Of a stretch of 64,000 nt of DNA, positions 52,974-60,161 are shown piece after piece (the stretch's first letter is position 1; every line of letters begins with the position of its first letter). Made by a program: the position numbers and the translations under genes. Location of the stretch: NCBI RefSeq assembly GCF_003259225.1, contig NZ_QHJF01000015.1, forward strand, positions 1 to 64,000, given 5' to 3'. The DNA is from Marinomonas arctica. GTDB taxonomy: Bacteria; Pseudomonadota; Gammaproteobacteria; Pseudomonadales; Marinomonadaceae. The notes below the pieces were generated by a model. That model was not told the DNA's origin and ran no database searches. It saw only the letters and a list, made by a program, of their open reading frames with translations.

Positions 52974-54080
52974 TTAAATATTAATGTGCCTAAAATGGTT
53001 ATCCCATTGAATGTTGGTATGATTCTTGACCATTTTGCTGATATTTTGTACTGGGTTGCTTTTTAGCTGCGCCCCTGTGCCACTGGTCAATAAAAACTCA
53101 TGGGCATTACTTGTTGCAACAAGACCACAAACATCGCGGCAATTTTCAACGCCTAAAAAGGTTTTTGTATCCACATGCCAATAGGCAACTAGGCCGCCTC
53201 TGGGGGTACTGATAGCCAAGATGTCACCAGACTTATCGAAACAAACGCTACCACAGTACTGCTTAAAGCGAATTCTAATGTCTTCCGGCATAGGAAGGTA
53301 ATCCAGTTCGGGGTGTTCTAGTCGAGATAAAGCCACCAATGGAACTTGATCCCATATATCGCCTTGATACTGAAAACCCAGTGCAACCGTCCCTTTAGGG
53401 TTCACATCAAGATGCCGAATACTCAATTGGTGTAATTCGTCACGATGGGAAGCTTGATTTAAAATACGACCATCTTTCAAGGAAAGGTAAGTGACATTGG
53501 GTTGCATGGTATCAAGATTTAATATGTCTCTGTCTTCTCTTGGGTGGGTCATGAGCCCACCGTTGGCGATAATCAACACTTGGTCATTTAAAAAAACAGA
53601 CTCATGGGGACCTATGCCATTGCTGTTGAACGATTGTAAAATGTTTCCACTTGGCCAATCCCGTATAAAGATCCTTCCTTCGCCAGTTGGATAGTAATTT
53701 TCCTGCGTAATGAGCTGAGTGCCATCGGCGGAAAAAAGTGCATGCCCGTAGAAATGATGGTCTTTACTTGGTTCAATACGTTTTATTCTCTGGCTGCTTG
53801 ACACATCAAAGAAATCCATAAAAAAACCTGGCCGTCTACCGACAATGCCAATGATGCTCTGGTTAGGGTGGACAACTGGCGCATGGGCCCGATCCGGTAA
53901 TGGCGCCGTCCAAAGGATCGTACCTTCATCGTTAAATAAGCCAAAAAAATGCGTGTTTTTGTCGAGTGAGTAGGCTGAAGCGTATAGTGTTTCGCCTGTT
54001 TTTTGCTGACTAAGAGCCGCCCAAGATGATGTAGTTATAAGAGCGCCACTCAACAGTAAAAATGATCGTCTCGATAACAT
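52974..54080 (-). CDS. DUF1513 protein with a Tat-type signal peptide
   Basis: The 368-residue protein starts with a twin-arginine signal (LSRRSFLLLSGALITTSSWA), so it is probably exported folded to the periplasm. The mature part (SLDKNTHFFGLF, EDRDILNLDTMQPNV, VCFDKSGDILAISTPRGG) looks like a seven-bladed beta-propeller and matches DUF1513. Members are found with imelysins and di-haem oxidoreductases in iron-regulated operons. Their role is not established. It starts 2 nt after the upstream imelysin gene and is the last gene of the operon. Confidence 0.87.
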   Translation of the reverse strand: MLSRRSFLLLSGALITTSSWAALSQQKTGETLYASAYSLDKNTHFFGLFNDEGTILWTAPLPDRAHAPVVHPNQSIIGIVGRRPGFFMDFFDVSSSQRIKRIEPSKDHHFYGHALFSADGTQLITQENYYPTGEGRIFIRDWPSGNILQSFNSNGIGPHESVFLNDQVLIIANGGLMTHPREDRDILNLDTMQPNVTYLSLKDGRILNQASHRDELHQLSIRHLDVNPKGTVALGFQYQGDIWDQVPLVALSRLEHPELDYLPMPEDIRIRFKQYCGSVCFDKSGDILAISTPRGGLVAYWHVDTKTFLGVENCRDVCGLVATSNAHEFLLTSGTGAQLKSNPVQNISKMVKNHTNIQWDNHFRHINI

Positions 54081-54082
54081 GC

Positions 54083-55141
54083 TTAATCTCCGTCCCTGCT
54101 GTTGAAGCCAATTTGAAAGCCAAGTTTCGTGACGAGACTGGATAAATAAGATTGGCTGTTTGAGATGGATTTTACGAGAGGTTGTGCAAGATCAAAGCGT
54201 TGCTCTTTTGTGTAGTTACCGTGAAAAAAGTCATCGGGCAACTGTAGCGCTAATTTGGTGTTTTCCGTTAACTGCTGCTCTAATTGCTCGGCCAGATTTG
54301 CATCGCTTTGCTTGGCAAGGTCAAACAAAGAAGGCGAACCCGTGTGATAAATTTCCCGGTAGGTTTGCACGTTTTTTTGTATAGCTTTTAAAGAGAGATT
54401 ACTGCGATAAAATTCAGCAAGTTTGAGATTTTCTCGGCCATTATAGCCAATGGGGGTTTCAAGCTTAGCGTCTTTTACTGCTGACATGTGCTCTAGCCAT
54501 TGTTGTAAAAATTGCTCTAATGCTACTTTTTCAGGATCAAAGCCCATACCCTCTTCGTCAAAGACCCAATCTTCTGCCTTGCCTTCTTGCCATTGTTTGA
54601 ATACAGCATCCGCACTCTTTGCGTGATGTGCTGTGATTTTCTCAAGTAGCAGACAATGGCTGGTTGATTGTACTGGCGTAAAATCAGGGTGATAAAGTAG
54701 GCTTTCGATGGCTGTTAAGCCTCTTACCGCTATGCTAGCGGATGTCCAAAATTTTGGCGCATCCATGATAGATGGATCACCTTGTGCCAGCGCTCTTAAC
54801 TGACGTTGGGTAACCCCTTTTTTATCTGGCCAATATTCGAAGGCGTAATAGCGCATGAAATACGTAACAGGACCGAAATTGAGCCACTGTACCTGCTGCC
54901 AATCTTGAGCGTTGATTTTAAAGGCGGTCTTTGCTGCTTCTAATGTTTGTGCTGATGGCGAAGCACACAAGGCGCTACTAAGATCTTGTAATGATTTTGA
55001 GGACGCTGAGTAGGCTTGATAACCTTGGGTAACAATCTGAGACGTGATGCCAGTAAGAGGGCCTTCCCACGTACCGGCTGATGCCAATAGAGGTGTAATG
55101 GTACTCATGGTGAATGCCATGAGTTTTGACAGATGTTTCAT
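54083..55141 (-). CDS. Imelysin-family periplasmic protein lacking the motif histidine
   Basis: The 352-residue protein has a signal peptide (about 1-21, ending PLLASAG) and the helical imelysin fold (LEAAKTAFKINAQDWQQVQW, WTSASIAVRGLTAIESLLYH). Imelysins are thought to bind iron or take part in its uptake through a GxHxxE motif. Here that motif reads G141-L-T143-A-I-E146, with Thr for the His. It may therefore bind metal differently or act as a partner of the intact imelysin encoded first in the operon. The start overlaps the upstream stop by one base (TAATG). Confidence 0.88.
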   Translation of the reverse strand: MKHLSKLMAFTMSTITPLLASAGTWEGPLTGITSQIVTQGYQAYSASSKSLQDLSSALCASPSAQTLEAAKTAFKINAQDWQQVQWLNFGPVTYFMRYYAFEYWPDKKGVTQRQLRALAQGDPSIMDAPKFWTSASIAVRGLTAIESLLYHPDFTPVQSTSHCLLLEKITAHHAKSADAVFKQWQEGKAEDWVFDEEGMGFDPEKVALEQFLQQWLEHMSAVKDAKLETPIGYNGRENLKLAEFYRSNLSLKAIQKNVQTYREIYHTGSPSLFDLAKQSDANLAEQLEQQLTENTKLALQLPDDFFHGNYTKEQRFDLAQPLVKSISNSQSYLSSLVTKLGFQIGFNSRDGD

Positions 55142-56514
55142 TAGAGAGACTCCAGAAAATAAATGAGTTTGTTGCGATGCTCTTTGTGTAGGCTTTTATA
55201 AAATTCTTGACTGCCTTTGGCTTCACCGCCATGCCATAAAATGGCTTCTTCAATATTTCTCGCTCGACCATCATGAAGAAAGCCCACTCTGCCAGACACT
55301 TTTTCAGACAAGCCGATTCCCCATAAAGGTGCTGTGCGCCATTCTCTTGGACTGGCTGAAAAGCTAGGAAATCCGCTAGCAAGACCCTCTCCCATATCGT
55401 GCAGTAGCATGTCAGTAAAAGGGTAAAAGGTACGGTTGTTGAGCACAGCAAAGCTTGAATGGTCACCAGTTTGCATTTTGGGAGTATGACAGCTGGCGCA
55501 GCCACCGTCGTCAAAAAGACGTTTCCCATCTAAAAAGTCTGTGCTGGTTAGGTTTCTCATTGCTGGGGGGGAGGAGAGGGAAATAAAAAGATCAACCAGT
55601 CTGGCTTGTTGCTTGTCAACTTCTAGGTTGTCTAAATGTGTACTGTTACCGTTTGCGCTGGTCATGCAGTCTGTCTGTAATGCGGTACAATCGCCAGAGG
55701 CTGACGGATTTAGTGGCGTTGATAGCCCCAAATCGGTATTAAAAGCGGACTGATTTTGCGCACTGATGTTGGCGACAGACGCCTTATAACCAAAACGGCC
55801 AATCACTTTTTCTTGCTTATTGAAAACCCAACTTACTCGGCCACTAATGCCATCGTTATTTTTATCATCAGGATCGGCATTTGCCATAATCATTTCGTCT
55901 GGAATGTTATCCAATAATCCCATTCCAACGAGGGCAGGTGATACCAGCATAGTAAACCCCGTGTCGGTTTCAAAATCGCCATAATGAAGCGTATTCCAAT
56001 GCAGGTTAGGTTGTCTCAGTGTGACTTGGGTGCCATCTTTTAATGTTTCAATGTGCGTGCTGTAGGTAAGAGAATAATCACCTTCCGGCAAAACGCCAAG
56101 GGTGCTTTGGCCTTGAAACTGATGGCCGTAACGTTTGTCACCAATGTGAGGGTAGATCGTGTTTTCATCCAATACGGGATAGCTCTTGCCTAGTCTAATT
56201 AAAAAAGACGGTACGGATAGGCCGCTAATATTCGCTTCTGGGGCGTGTCCTCGGCCATTGTTGATGTGACAATTGTTGCAAGAACGAGTATTGAATAGAG
56301 GGCCTAATCCATCGCTGGCTGTTGTCGAAGAGGGGGCAGGCACCCAAAATTTTTGAAAAACGCCTTCACCGATATGAAATTCAAATTTGTCTTCTACTCG
56401 AAGACCTGACAACGGCGTGGAATAATCACTGGCCATTGCTAGGTTCTGAAAGCAAAAAAAGCCAGCGCACGCGCCAGCAACGAAAAACACACAAGCCTTG
56501 AAATTTGCTGTCAT
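55141..56514 (-). CDS. Di-haem oxidoreductase (DUF1111, putative peroxidase)
   Basis: The 457-residue protein has an N-terminal signal or anchor (about 1-28) and two c-type haem sites, CNNCH (79-83) and CASCH (about 339-343). It matches the DUF1111 di-haem oxidoreductase family, distantly MauG-like. It is expected to be periplasmic, and in imelysin operons it may oxidise or reduce iron before transport. That role is inference. A segment DPDDKNNDGISG resembles a calcium-binding loop. Co-transcribed with the next gene by one-base overlap. Confidence 0.9.
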   Translation of the reverse strand: MTANFKACVFFVAGACAGFFCFQNLAMASDYSTPLSGLRVEDKFEFHIGEGVFQKFWVPAPSSTTASDGLGPLFNTRSCNNCHINNGRGHAPEANISGLSVPSFLIRLGKSYPVLDENTIYPHIGDKRYGHQFQGQSTLGVLPEGDYSLTYSTHIETLKDGTQVTLRQPNLHWNTLHYGDFETDTGFTMLVSPALVGMGLLDNIPDEMIMANADPDDKNNDGISGRVSWVFNKQEKVIGRFGYKASVANISAQNQSAFNTDLGLSTPLNPSASGDCTALQTDCMTSANGNSTHLDNLEVDKQQARLVDLFISLSSPPAMRNLTSTDFLDGKRLFDDGGCASCHTPKMQTGDHSSFAVLNNRTFYPFTDMLLHDMGEGLASGFPSFSASPREWRTAPLWGIGLSEKVSGRVGFLHDGRARNIEEAILWHGGEAKGSQEFYKSLHKEHRNKLIYFLESL

Positions 56515-56544
56515 AAACAGACGAATACCACAACTTAATATACA

Positions 56545-56575
56545 GAGACCTTTACCTTATGGTAGTAAAGGTCTC
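56545..56575 (-). promoter_or_regulatory. Intercistronic 11-bp hairpin inside the iron operon
   Basis: GAGACCTTTAC and GTAAAGGTCTC are perfect inverted repeats around a 9-nt loop, in the 123-nt gap after the first imelysin gene. No T run follows on the minus strand. It could stabilise or process the mRNA, or slow polymerase, to raise the first gene over the rest. Confidence 0.5.
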
Positions 56576-56637
56576 ATATGACACATTTTATTCATCCATG
56601 TTTTAAATGCAGAGCCGTTTTTATTGCAAGCGCATCA

Positions 56638-57936
56638 TTAATTATCAAAGACAGCACTAGGGTTATCCAAGCTGTCTGAACCTTCTAGCGCAATGCCCTC
56701 AAGGTTGAGTAGGTGAATAATGTCTTCGGTAGTGCGAGTTTCATCGACCAATGAATCGACAAAATTTTGCACAAGTTGATTGCCTTTGGTGTTGTTCATG
56801 GCAATCAAGACATCAAAGGTTTGGCCTTTTCCTGCAGCATCAACCATTGCTTGTGCTGCGGCCTCAGTGTCATTAAGTTTTTGCTTCATTTCGTTGTCGA
56901 GCTGTTTGTTTTGCTTAGCAACGAGGTTAGACAAAGACGCGCCTTTCACCCAGCTACCGTCGACACGCTGATATTCGCCTAAGTACGCATTTTTGATGCC
57001 TTTTGCATCATAGTAATGTGACCAATGTGTGTTATCAGAAAAGCAATCGTGCTCTTCTTCAGGGTCGTGTAACATCAAACCAAGTTTCGTTCTTTCGCCA
57101 CCCAACTCACCGTACGCAAGGCTTCCCATGCCGGTAAGAATAGTCGCCAGGCCTTGCTCAGGCGTTTGCTCTAATAAAGCAACACGAGCAGCACCACCTT
57201 GTTTCCAATTGTTTGCCATTTCTTCTAAGTCTGAAATAAGCAAATCGGTAGCCGCCACTAAATAATCACGGCGACGATCGCAGTTGCCATTTGTGCAGTT
57301 ATTTACATCAAAATCCGTTGCAGGGCGTTCGCCAGCGCCTGGATTGGTGCCGTTTAGATCTTGCCCCCATAGTAAAAACTCAATGGCGTGGTAACCACTG
57401 GCAACGTTGGCTTCAACGCCATCGGCTTCTTGCAAGCTTTCGGCAATAAGCTCAGGAGTAATATTAGTGGTGTCTACTTTTACGCCACCAATGACTAGGC
57501 TAGTGGATGCGATCACATTGGCTGCGTAAAGCGGGTTTAAATCGGATTCTGTACCGTAGCTATCCGCTGCTACATAATCAATCAAGCCTTCGTCTAGAGG
57601 CCAAGCATTCACCTTGCCTTCCCATTCATCTACGATCGGATTACCGAAACGGTAAACTTCACTTTGCTGATAAGGCACACGAGCTGCGATCCATGCCGTG
57701 CGCGCTGCTTTTAAGTTGGCTTCAGTAGGATTGGCTAACAAGGTGTTGATAGCGGTACGCAGAGTCTGTGCTGTTGTGAGTGAATCAGTGTAAACCGCTT
57801 CGGCAATGTCTGCATAATGAATCACGACGGAATGGGCAGTAACGGCCGCAGATTCATTTTTTAGGGCAGCAGGACTGCAAGCTGTGAGCATCGCACCAGT
57901 CACACAAATTGCGATAGGGGTTAACAATCGTTTCAT
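56638..57936 (-). CDS. Imelysin-family lipoprotein, likely iron-regulated
   Basis: The 432-residue protein carries a lipoprotein signal with lipobox LTAC (Cys20), so it is membrane-anchored in the periplasm. Two imelysin repeats are visible. The canonical GxHxxE motif is intact as G181-Y-H183-A-I-E186 in GYHAIEFLLWGQD. RVPYQQSEVYRFGNPIVDEW and the C-terminal NNTKGNQLVQNFVDSL are also conserved. It resembles IrpA and Pseudomonas imelysin-type proteins induced by low iron. It is the first gene of the operon behind a Fur-like box. ATG follows TTGGAG. Confidence 0.92.
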   Translation of the reverse strand: MKRLLTPIAICVTGAMLTACSPAALKNESAAVTAHSVVIHYADIAEAVYTDSLTTAQTLRTAINTLLANPTEANLKAARTAWIAARVPYQQSEVYRFGNPIVDEWEGKVNAWPLDEGLIDYVAADSYGTESDLNPLYAANVIASTSLVIGGVKVDTTNITPELIAESLQEADGVEANVASGYHAIEFLLWGQDLNGTNPGAGERPATDFDVNNCTNGNCDRRRDYLVAATDLLISDLEEMANNWKQGGAARVALLEQTPEQGLATILTGMGSLAYGELGGERTKLGLMLHDPEEEHDCFSDNTHWSHYYDAKGIKNAYLGEYQRVDGSWVKGASLSNLVAKQNKQLDNEMKQKLNDTEAAAQAMVDAAGKGQTFDVLIAMNNTKGNQLVQNFVDSLVDETRTTEDIIHLLNLEGIALEGSDSLDNPSAVFDN

Positions 57937-57968
57937 CTTAGAGACTCCAATATGTTCATGTGCTAGGC

Positions 57969-57998
57969 ATAGTATTAGAAATGAAAACGATTATCAAT
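57969..57998 (-). promoter_or_regulatory. Fur box overlapping the promoter of the imelysin operon
   Basis: On the minus strand, ATTGATAATCGTTTTCATT (57980-57998) matches 16 of 19 positions of the E. coli Fur consensus as I recall it. The same bases include a -35 TTGATA (57992-57997) and lead, after 17 nt, to a -10 TACTAT (57969-57974). Fur with iron would block this promoter directly. Confidence 0.75.
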
Positions 57999-58052
57999 GA
58001 TGATGTTTGCGCATTTTTTACAATTTATTGAATGCCTGTCGTGGCACAGTCT

Positions 58053-58634
58053 TCAGTGGCACTGGTACTGAAAGGTGTTACCAGCAGAGCTTGCTAAATC
58101 ATATTCACAAGCCTTATTGCGTAATAAACTTTGTCCTTCCCACGAGACACTCATACTAACAGGGGATTTATTTTTATAGCTAGGAATAAAGCGATAGGCT
58201 GCGATCACTTCGATGTTACTGTTTGGACCTAGCTGTACAGATTGGCCGATAAGTCTCTGACGTGTTTCTGTGTTATAGAGCGTGTAATCAGTGGTGTATT
58301 CTTGGTCGCCGTTTTCATGAGAAAAGTTCAACCAGATTTTGCGATAAGTTTGTGGGTCTTGCGTTGGATTACTAAAGCGTAACTTTGTGTAGATAATCTG
58401 TGCTCTAGACAAACTCGTTTGCGCATTTTGGTTGACTTTTACAAATGACATATCGTCTTCTTGCCAAGGCATATTAGTGCCAAACGATGCATCCACAATT
58501 TGAATGCTTTCCTTTGCTAAGACAGATTCTGTGAATTTCAGAAGGTCTTTCACTGGTGCATACAAGGCCAGTGCCACAACACCGAGTAGAGCGATTTTAT
58601 GAATAGTATGAGTAGGGCTTGGTAGCTTGATCAT
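58053..58634 (-). CDS. Unknown single-pass membrane protein behind tandem LexA-like boxes
   Basis: I do not recognise this 193-residue protein. It has one membrane segment (about residues 13-28, IALLGVVALALYAPV). An exported domain rich in beta-strand patterns follows (RKIWLNFSHENGDQEYTTDY, NSNIEVIAAYRFIP, SPVSMSVSWEGQS). Two Cys near the C-terminus (NKACEYD and QYQCH) could form a disulfide. Start is the ATG at 58634, with AAAGGA at 7-nt spacing. The GTG at 58640 lies too close to that ribosome site. Two SOS-type boxes overlap its promoter, so DNA damage control is likely. A division-inhibitor or envelope role is speculation. Confidence 0.8.
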   Translation of the reverse strand: MIKLPSPTHTIHKIALLGVVALALYAPVKDLLKFTESVLAKESIQIVDASFGTNMPWQEDDMSFVKVNQNAQTSLSRAQIIYTKLRFSNPTQDPQTYRKIWLNFSHENGDQEYTTDYTLYNTETRQRLIGQSVQLGPNSNIEVIAAYRFIPSYKNKSPVSMSVSWEGQSLLRNKACEYDLASSAGNTFQYQCH

Positions 58635-58657
58635 ATACACATCCTTTAAACTATCTT

Positions 58658-58706
58658 TACTGTTTATTTATACAGTACTGTATATCCGAACAGTATTGTA
58701 TTACAA
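58658..58706 (-). promoter_or_regulatory. SOS-like promoter with two tandem LexA boxes
   Basis: TACTGTTTATTTATACAGTA (58658-58677) matches 18 of 20 positions of the E. coli LexA consensus. TACTGTATATCCGAACAGTA (58676-58695) matches 16 of 20 and shares TA with the first. On the minus strand a promoter TTGTAA (58701-58706), 16-nt spacer, TATACA (58679-58684) lies across the boxes. The overlap also makes a perfect 12-bp palindrome TACAGTACTGTA. A TetR-type operator is the main alternative. Confidence 0.7.
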
Positions 58707-58924
58707 GTTGTTTTTTCAAAAATAGTTTGCATTTCTCAAAAAAATTATCGTGATTGTGCTGTTTGTCGCTTTTTTAAATTATTAAAAATAATGTTTGATT
58801 TTATTTAGTTGATTGAATTTAAAGGGAATATTCATGATTCCCACAGCCTTCTTAACGGTTTCTGTGGACAAGATTTTGACCTTCCTTTCTGTGTTCTGAT
58901 CGGAAAGTCTATTTGCCTGATTAG
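58707..58924. other. Non-coding AT-rich region between divergent genes
   Basis: There is no gene or strong motif here. Small inverted repeats such as GGGAAT/ATTCCC (near 58824-58842) and CCACAG/CTGTGG (near 58841-58868) are present but short. Confidence 0.4.
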
Positions 58925-58953
58925 ATGGCAATAAATGACGTAGACACTATAAT
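58925..58953 (+). promoter_or_regulatory. Promoter of the flavoprotein gene
   Basis: ATGGCA (58925-58930), a 17-nt spacer and a perfect TATAAT (58948-58953) end 29 nt before the GTG start at 58983. Confidence 0.6.
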
Positions 58954-58982
58954 GCAGCCACTAATAAGAGATGAGGTAGGTT

Positions 58983-60161
58983 GTGGATAAAGTGGATGTG
59001 ATCGTCATTGGTGCCGGAGCGTCAGGCTTAATGTGTGCGGCAACGGCAGGTTATCGTGGTAAAAAAGTGATGGTATTGGATCACGCAAACAAAGCAGGGA
59101 AAAAAATTCTCATGTCTGGCGGTGGTCGCTGTAACTTTACCAACATGGATGCATCACCCAAGCATTTTTTATCTGATAATCCATATTTTTGCATTTCTGC
59201 ACTACGTCGTTTTTCACCACAAGATTTTGTTGATCTCGTTGATCGTCATGGTTTGGATTACGTTGAAAAAACGCCTGGACAATTATTCTGCGAGCATTCT
59301 GCAAAAGACTTGCTTGATATATTACTGACAGAGCTTGAATGGTCCGGCGCAGAGTTAAAGTTAAACACCAAAATTCACCATATTGATTTTCAAGACGGAC
59401 AGACTGTCCTTAAAACTAATCAAGGGGATGTTGCTTGCGAATCTCTCGTTATAGCAACGGGTGGTTTGTCAATTCCAACCATGGGTGCGACAGGTTTTGG
59501 CTACGACATCGCCAAGCAAGTCGGCCATGACATATTACCGACTCGTGCCAGTCTGGTTCCTATTACCATTCAGCCTGATCGGAAAGCACAGCTTGCTGAA
59601 CTCTCTGGTATTGCTTGTGAGATAGCAGCAACAGCAGGGGGCGTCACTTTCCAAGAACCAATGTTGTTTACTCATCGCGGTGTCAGCGGCCCTTCCATTT
59701 TGCAAATTACCAATTTTTGGCAACCAGGCGAAATGCTTGCCATTAATATTGCACCGACCCTATCGCTAGACGACTTACTCGACGTTCGACAAAGCACTCC
59801 GAAAAAAAGCTATGAAGGTGTTTTATCTCATCTTCTACCAAAACGCTTAGTAGAACTGATTAAAATAGAATTCCCTTGGCTCAGCGAACGCAGCGCACAA
59901 ACATCCAATGAACAGATCGACAGTTTGTTTCGCTACCTGTCTCATTTTGATATAAAACCCAATGGCACAGAAGGGTACCGAACTGCCGAAGTGACGCTTG
60001 GCGGTGTGAACACCAATGAAGTGTCTTCGAAAACCTTCGAATCACAAAAACAAAAAGGGCTTTATTTTATTGGTGAAGTGCTCGATGTGACGGGTTGGCT
60101 CGGCGGCTACAACTTCCAATGGGCGTGGGCCAGTGGTTATTGTGCTGGGCAGTATGTTTGA
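58983..60161 (+). CDS. BaiN/HI0933-family FAD-dependent oxidoreductase, GTG start
   Basis: The 392-residue flavoprotein begins VDVIVIGAGASGLMCAATAG, a dinucleotide-binding fold for FAD. AGKKILMSGGGRCNFTN follows, the hallmark of the HI0933/YhiN group. ESLVIATGGLSIPTMGATG, the LFTHRGVSGPSILQ segment and the C-terminal FAD motif GLYFIGEVLDVTGWLGGYN complete it. Substrates are unknown for most members. The GTG at 58983 follows GAGGTAGG. It is a single-gene unit. Confidence 0.93.
   Translation: MDKVDVIVIGAGASGLMCAATAGYRGKKVMVLDHANKAGKKILMSGGGRCNFTNMDASPKHFLSDNPYFCISALRRFSPQDFVDLVDRHGLDYVEKTPGQLFCEHSAKDLLDILLTELEWSGAELKLNTKIHHIDFQDGQTVLKTNQGDVACESLVIATGGLSIPTMGATGFGYDIAKQVGHDILPTRASLVPITIQPDRKAQLAELSGIACEIAATAGGVTFQEPMLFTHRGVSGPSILQITNFWQPGEMLAINIAPTLSLDDLLDVRQSTPKKSYEGVLSHLLPKRLVELIKIEFPWLSERSAQTSNEQIDSLFRYLSHFDIKPNGTEGYRTAEVTLGGVNTNEVSSKTFESQKQKGLYFIGEVLDVTGWLGGYNFQWAWASGYCAGQYV

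Follow-up and report, generated by a model that had tools for sequence, protein, structure and literature searches.

The SOS division inhibitor SulA is a cytosolic protein. It acts on FtsZ (PMC13396833, in the portion available), and the SOS division inhibitors other than SulA, as described in the available portions of two papers, are often small integral membrane proteins which act late, on the synthesis of the septal wall (PMC13396833; PMC4211646). The DNA damage-induced membrane division inhibitors named in these portions are YneA, SidA, DidA, SosA and ChiZ (PMC13396833; PMC4211646). The gene described here, whose features are listed in Table 1, is located in a 64,000-nucleotide window (viz. 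the whole stretch of DNA that was analysed) from the Marinomonas arctica genome (4.45 Mb in 115 contigs), and for its product SOS control, a single membrane segment and an exported part are all predicted from the sequence. By this prediction it resembles YneA of Bacillus subtilis, which, in the text available, is SOS-induced and possesses one transmembrane segment and an extracellular domain (PMC13396833); however, the exported part of YneA is a LysM domain, and no such domain was found in our protein, LysM being absent among the families matched at E ≤0.1 by its 47 members. SidA and DidA of Caulobacter, SosA of Staphylococcus and ChiZ of Mycobacterium, as far as the same portions describe them, are similarly DNA damage-induced small membrane division inhibitors, a likeness which for our protein is again one of prediction, but the searches made revealed no family common to it and these proteins, and no division inhibitor related to it in sequence. 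DidA is 71 aa in length (PMC4211646, in part), in contrast to 193 aa for the protein described here. SulA (PF03846), which is found beside lexA in relatives, has in common with it the SOS control (predicted here) and the proposed role as a division checkpoint, whereas our protein differs from it in being anchored by a membrane segment and in its domain that is probably exported; in the genus, no match to PF03846 was seen. SidA is also much smaller than our protein, and the exported domain of the latter, at about 150 aa, far exceeds that in SidA.

Table 1. Coordinates, within the window, of the predicted SOS-controlled gene, its operator, the parts of its product and the divergent neighbour
Feature	Position	Strand	Basis or remark
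CDS, predicted SOS-controlled orphan membrane protein, 193 aa, ATG start	58053..58634	-	ORF and orthologue conservation
Predicted LexA box 1, gene-distal, TACTGTTCGGATATACAGTA	58676..58695	-	12/12 to TACTGTN8ACAGTA; starts at -61 from ATG
Predicted LexA box 2, proximal, TACTGTATAAATAAACAGTA	58658..58677	-	12/12 to TACTGTN8ACAGTA; starts at -43 from ATG
34-bp tandem operator, CTGTN8ACAGTACTGTN8ACAG	58660..58693	.	Adjoins the gene in each of the 46/48 family genomes that have it; none in reversed control
Hydrophobic (membrane) segment, from about residue 13, ending in YAPxKD (residues 25-30)	58545..58598	-	Hydropathy, conservation
Probably exported domain, about residues 44-193, invariant Cys176 and Cys192	58056..58505	-	Export and disulphide predicted
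Divergent neighbour, HI0933-like/BaiN flavoprotein, conserved locus partner	58983..60161	+	No sign of SOS control

The two boxes that precede this gene are each an exact TACTGT-N8-ACAGTA of 20 bp; their offset is 18 bp and they overlap by 2 bp, so that the dinucleotide TA is common to both, and the proximal box ends 23 nt before the ATG. The earlier note, which had described them as TACTG-N10-CAGTA boxes, had placed them correctly and zero mismatches were found on checking. Its scores of 18/20 and 16/20 against the 20-bp E. coli LexA consensus were also obtained when the count was repeated. The 16-bp core of this consensus is given, in the available part of one paper, as CTGTatatatatACAG (PMC3108266). 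Within the window, TACTG-N10-CAGTA at ≤1 mismatch is present at 6 sites, as against a mean of 1.15 in shuffled sequence, none of the 100 shuffles having as many as 6. A promoter of the form TTGTAA-N16-TATACA had also been proposed at this place, and while its sequence is indeed present, it was not found to exceed chance and was not listed by the sigma-70 scan of positions 57900-59000, whose four promoter-like sites did not exceed those in shuffles (mean 3.7); the -35 part of this promoter also differs among relatives. In the beta- and gamma-proteobacteria a member of the LexA regulon is recognised by a CTGT-N8-ACAG box at its promoter, and the gene described here has two exact boxes of this kind just ahead of its start codon, at a putative promoter.

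In the whole genome, exact TACTG-N10-CAGTA is found at 9 sites versus 2 for the reversed control, and exact TACTGT-N8-ACAGTA is found at 6 sites only, two of which are at our gene, one each (all 12/12) at dinB (IMS family), recA and yebG (PF07130), and one before an ORF resembling a REP transposase. The box of uvrA (a gene named by eye) matches at 11/12 positions, and the tandem boxes of lexA at 10/12 and 9/12. At ≤2 mismatches, TACTGT-N8-ACAGTA has 159 sites in the genome versus 293 in the reversed control; as such sites are no commoner than in the control, only the best-matching sites carry weight, and sites with 1-2 mismatches were never used as evidence by themselves. Our gene and recA, dinB, yebG, uvrA and lexA of this genome share one kind of box, and lexA is present in 48/48 family genomes. 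Palindromes of such an outline can be bound by regulators other than LexA, and this general consideration would allow a regulator of TetR or another type, rather than LexA, to act on the pair of boxes. However, the same word is present at recA, dinB, yebG and uvrA of this genome, the tandem geometry is found in other genera ahead of ORFs resembling lexA and recA (see below), and a nearby TetR-type regulator, which the earlier note had considered, was not seen in the seven ORFs scanned, where the gene is flanked by a divergent flavoprotein gene and, downstream, an imelysin gene. We consider control by another regulator to be very improbable.

An orthologue of this gene is present in 47 of the 48 family genomes, the genome without one being 77% complete, and the boxes are found upstream of the orthologues as they should be for a LexA-controlled gene. 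A pair of boxes with each ≥9/12, at the 18-bp offset and before the start, precedes 46/47 orthologues (both boxes are ≥10/12 in 45/47), and at the 47th locus the proximal box is exact and the distal box has decayed to half; at least one box of ≥10/12 is thereby present upstream in 47/47. Exact 12/12 boxes are seen in 39 of the 47 operators (two of them in 13), and in the 8 operators without an exact box the best box matches at 10 or 11 of 12 positions. In these 47 loci, sites of ≥11/12 number 79 in 5,217 upstream positions versus 2 in 207,587 other positions, and the mean information is 1.76 bits in the box columns, 1.22 in the spacers and 0.69 in the flanks. When the 34-bp operator was searched for as a single pattern (≤1 mismatch), it was found once in 45 of the 48 family genomes and twice in one, was absent in two, and gave 0 hits in the reversed control; adjacency to the gene was compared by eye on positions, and the extra site in the genome with two lies elsewhere than the gene. 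In none of the 31 lexA loci read do the boxes of lexA itself exceed 11/12, and due to this our operator is expected, from the consensus match, to be at least as tightly held as that of lexA in most species.

Outside of Marinomonas, the tandem operator was found in 24 genomes. At 16 of these loci, whose ORFs were read by eye, it lies before a lexA-like ORF in three and before recA in two, with a known SOS gene not evident at 10; at one outside locus it is beside a PF03846 match. In four further outside genomes it is again, as judged by position, beside PF03846 matches, with frames of 229-241 aa, which are probably ImuA; 20 of the 24 genomes were covered in these two ways. The presence of the tandem geometry before lexA-like ORFs and recA in other genera supports the view that it is a real SOS operator layout. 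The proposal of the earlier note that the gene is controlled by LexA had been made open to challenge from three sides, viz. orthologues lacking the boxes, boxes unlike those of this genome's own SOS genes, and a nearby TetR-type regulator; all three were looked at and none of them speaks against it. As judged from its operator, the gene is very likely under LexA/SOS control.

The earlier note had described the protein as unknown, which agrees with our finding of no family match above chance in Pfam, NCBIfam, PHROGs, PADLOC or the PDB sequences. In a profile search of the order, the protein was found in 18/390 genomes, all of which belong to one genus of the 142, and no further credible genome was found by this search among 369 of the class; one class-level match (E 0.003, over 37 positions and interrupted by a stop) was attributed to chance. 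A scan with peptide patterns of a collection holding one genome per species yielded 36 loci, of which 35 are from Marinomonas and one from Maribrevibacterium. In the searches made, the gene is known only from these two genera and belongs to no known family. Among open-licence papers, we found none on SOS or LexA in Marinomonas or on this gene or regulon, and also no relevant regulon study or work on lineage-specific periplasmic SOS genes.

The HI0933-like flavoprotein gene adjoins our gene in 35/36 flanked loci, in 34 of them divergently and in one on the same strand; one locus starts too near the contig edge to show this neighbour. Due to this adjacency, the gene appears to occupy a fixed chromosomal place rather than to be part of a prophage. 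This observation bears on the suggestion that the protein, under SOS control, assists lysis or the release of prophages or bacteriocins at the time of phage induction. Such a function would be in accord with M. mediterranea, in which mitomycin induces lysis and R-bacteriocin particles, as reported in the available part of PMC10870725; a word search of that part did not show the words filament, SOS, RecA, LexA or elongated. However, besides the constancy of the flavoprotein neighbour, searches of PHROGs, of 50,697 phage records and of 72,556 plasmid records gave no homologue, nor did scanning viral contigs with a pattern, and a helper function of this kind is, in our view, improbable. Downstream of the gene, positions 52974-57936 of the window hold a cluster of genes for an imelysin, a di-haem oxidoreductase (MauG), a second imelysin and a DUF1513 protein. 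This cluster is found downstream in 30/36 loci, with an EAL-domain gene in its place in the other 6. Membership of our gene in the cluster was considered and rejected, as six loci retain the gene and its paired boxes without the cluster.

The description of the product as a 193-residue protein with one membrane segment holds, as the CDS has a single hydrophobic segment, which is N-terminal. For the 47 members, the 17-residue hydropathy peak has a median of 1.7 and a lowest value of 1.12, versus 1.07 for the highest second peak elsewhere; the segment is weak in some members, and a net positive charge ahead of it is seen in 47/47. In the YAPxKD motif at the outer end of the segment, Y, P, K and D are invariant and A is nearly so. 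Mean conservation is 0.90 for residues 25-31 (YAPVKDL), 0.53 for residues 13-24, 0.43 for the linker (32-42) and 0.79 for the core of the exported domain (77-170). Exactly two Cys, corresponding to the two invariant ones, are present in 41/47 members and three in 6, and the exported domain probably contains one disulphide; that its fold is a beta-sandwich is a guess from the sequence pattern. Five close orthologue pairs differ mainly at third codon positions, from which it follows that the protein is under purifying selection.

These features also have to be considered in relation to the main alternative explanation, according to which the protein is an SOS-controlled envelope protein without a division role, which, once DNA has been damaged, would protect or remodel the envelope, or modify traffic at the surface or in the periplasm. 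Besides YAPxKD, the most conserved part of the protein is the core of its exported domain, an indication that the protein has its own partner in the periplasm, and the very weak matches to DUF5067 (in 6/47 members; best E 0.015), DUF7023 (in 4/47; best E 0.017, with 15.3 bits versus a cut-off of 27) and a fibulin Ig-like domain (in 1/47; E ≥0.015) would suit a beta-sandwich binding domain. However, all of these matches have E values of 0.015 or worse and the faint similarities to DUF5067 and DUF7023 should not be interpreted as showing membership in those families; the envelope role also leaves the lack of SulA, described below, unexplained. We regard an envelope role of this kind as possible, but doubtful.

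The protein shows no PF03846 match and, as the earlier note had stated, is not SulA-like. Further, SulA (PF03846) was detected in 0/48 family genomes, although the E. coli control was detected. In the order, PF03846 matches are present in 114/293 genomes and 54/118 genera, many of which have long frames and are probably ImuA. In the best 12 SulA-family loci of the order, lexA adjoins the match in 12/12, and in 8/12 the neighbour on the other side is p88, as named in Marinomonas; for Marinomonas, 31 lexA loci from the 48 genomes were examined, and in every one p88 comes directly after lexA, at a distance of 49-204 bp. As this gap is too short for SulA, the SulA slot beside lexA is closed. The idea of a role in division control gains from SulA being undetected. 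However, it will be incorrect to interpret the absence of SulA alone as implying its replacement, since 64/118 genera of the order also lack any PF03846 match, and the loss of SulA is for the same reason not peculiar to Marinomonas.

Based on the membrane anatomy, the very strong operator, the core status of the gene and the undetected SulA, a checkpoint that replaces SulA is the best single hypothesis. According to it, the gene would be a core member of a Marinomonas-type SOS regulon, in which the -10 region and the likely transcription start would be covered by LexA dimers bound to both overlapping boxes, and the gene thereby kept tightly off until DNA damage leads to active RecA, self-cleavage of LexA and expression of the gene. 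The product would be a bitopic inner-membrane protein with its N-terminus inside and an exported domain with one probable disulphide, and it would delay septation from the membrane or periplasm side, doing the work that SulA does in relatives, through contact of the membrane segment and YAPxKD with the septal cell-wall synthesis complex. Taken as a whole, viz. an SOS-controlled membrane protein that serves as the SOS division inhibitor in place of SulA, this is a tentative proposal, whose chance of being correct we place somewhat below even. The size of the exported domain relative to SidA, the failure to find a peptidoglycan-binding domain in the protein or a sequence relative among the division inhibitors, the weak hydrophobic segment of some members, the 8 operators lacking an exact box and the decayed distal box at one locus all speak against it. 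The more specific form of this proposal, in which the SulA/FtsZ checkpoint was lost and replaced by a lineage-specific bitopic protein with a new fold and with YAPxKD as its contact motif, is conceivable, although on balance we do not expect it to be right in all its parts. If this is true, a late-acting SOS checkpoint would have arisen independently within the Gammaproteobacteria, and a division checkpoint of this kind, with SulA replaced by a membrane-acting inhibitor, would provide a new handle on stopping septal wall synthesis. A core gene under one of the best-matching SOS operators of its lineage, for which no family was found, would in any case point to a gap in the DNA-damage response as known.

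Observations of a different kind were made at some of the other boxes. The exact box at recA (L007, on G000:C58) is shortly followed by a 67-aa stub of the recA 5' end (1605-1805; TIGR02012, E 2.7e-23), and the full recA, with a start sequence different from that of the stub, lies after it at 1927-2976; recA has possibly been replaced here, with its old 5' end and operator left behind. At L009:1501-1520 (G000:C106:94357-94376), an exact box is located about 23 nt before the GTG that was picked by eye as the likely start of an ORF similar to the REP-associated tyrosine transposases (NF047646, E 3.5e-9, below its cut-off), which is possibly an SOS-controlled REP transposase. The 11/12 box at L016:1501-1520 (G000:C38:83389-83408) is in a region that looks mobile and contains an ORF similar to P-loop kinases (TIGR03574, E 1.2e-5, below cut-off) and, by eye, HTH-like and radC-like ORFs, and it may be due to chance. 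Another 11/12 box (L021/L075; G000:C47:43093-43112) lies between a small Cro-like ORF and an HTH ORF, the C-terminal part of which gives a weak match to the lexA profile (E 2.9e-10) and which is followed by a csrA-like ORF, read by eye; this box is possibly the operator of the repressor itself. In a genus of the order (g55), the tandem geometry, with one mismatch, is present at three loci (L179, L180 and L181), which are among the 10 outside loci lacking an evident known SOS gene, 3-64 nt before a common small ORF of 86-109 aa which contains FTQVDYRQFRQHLADITTN, and this ORF is possibly another lineage-specific SOS gene.
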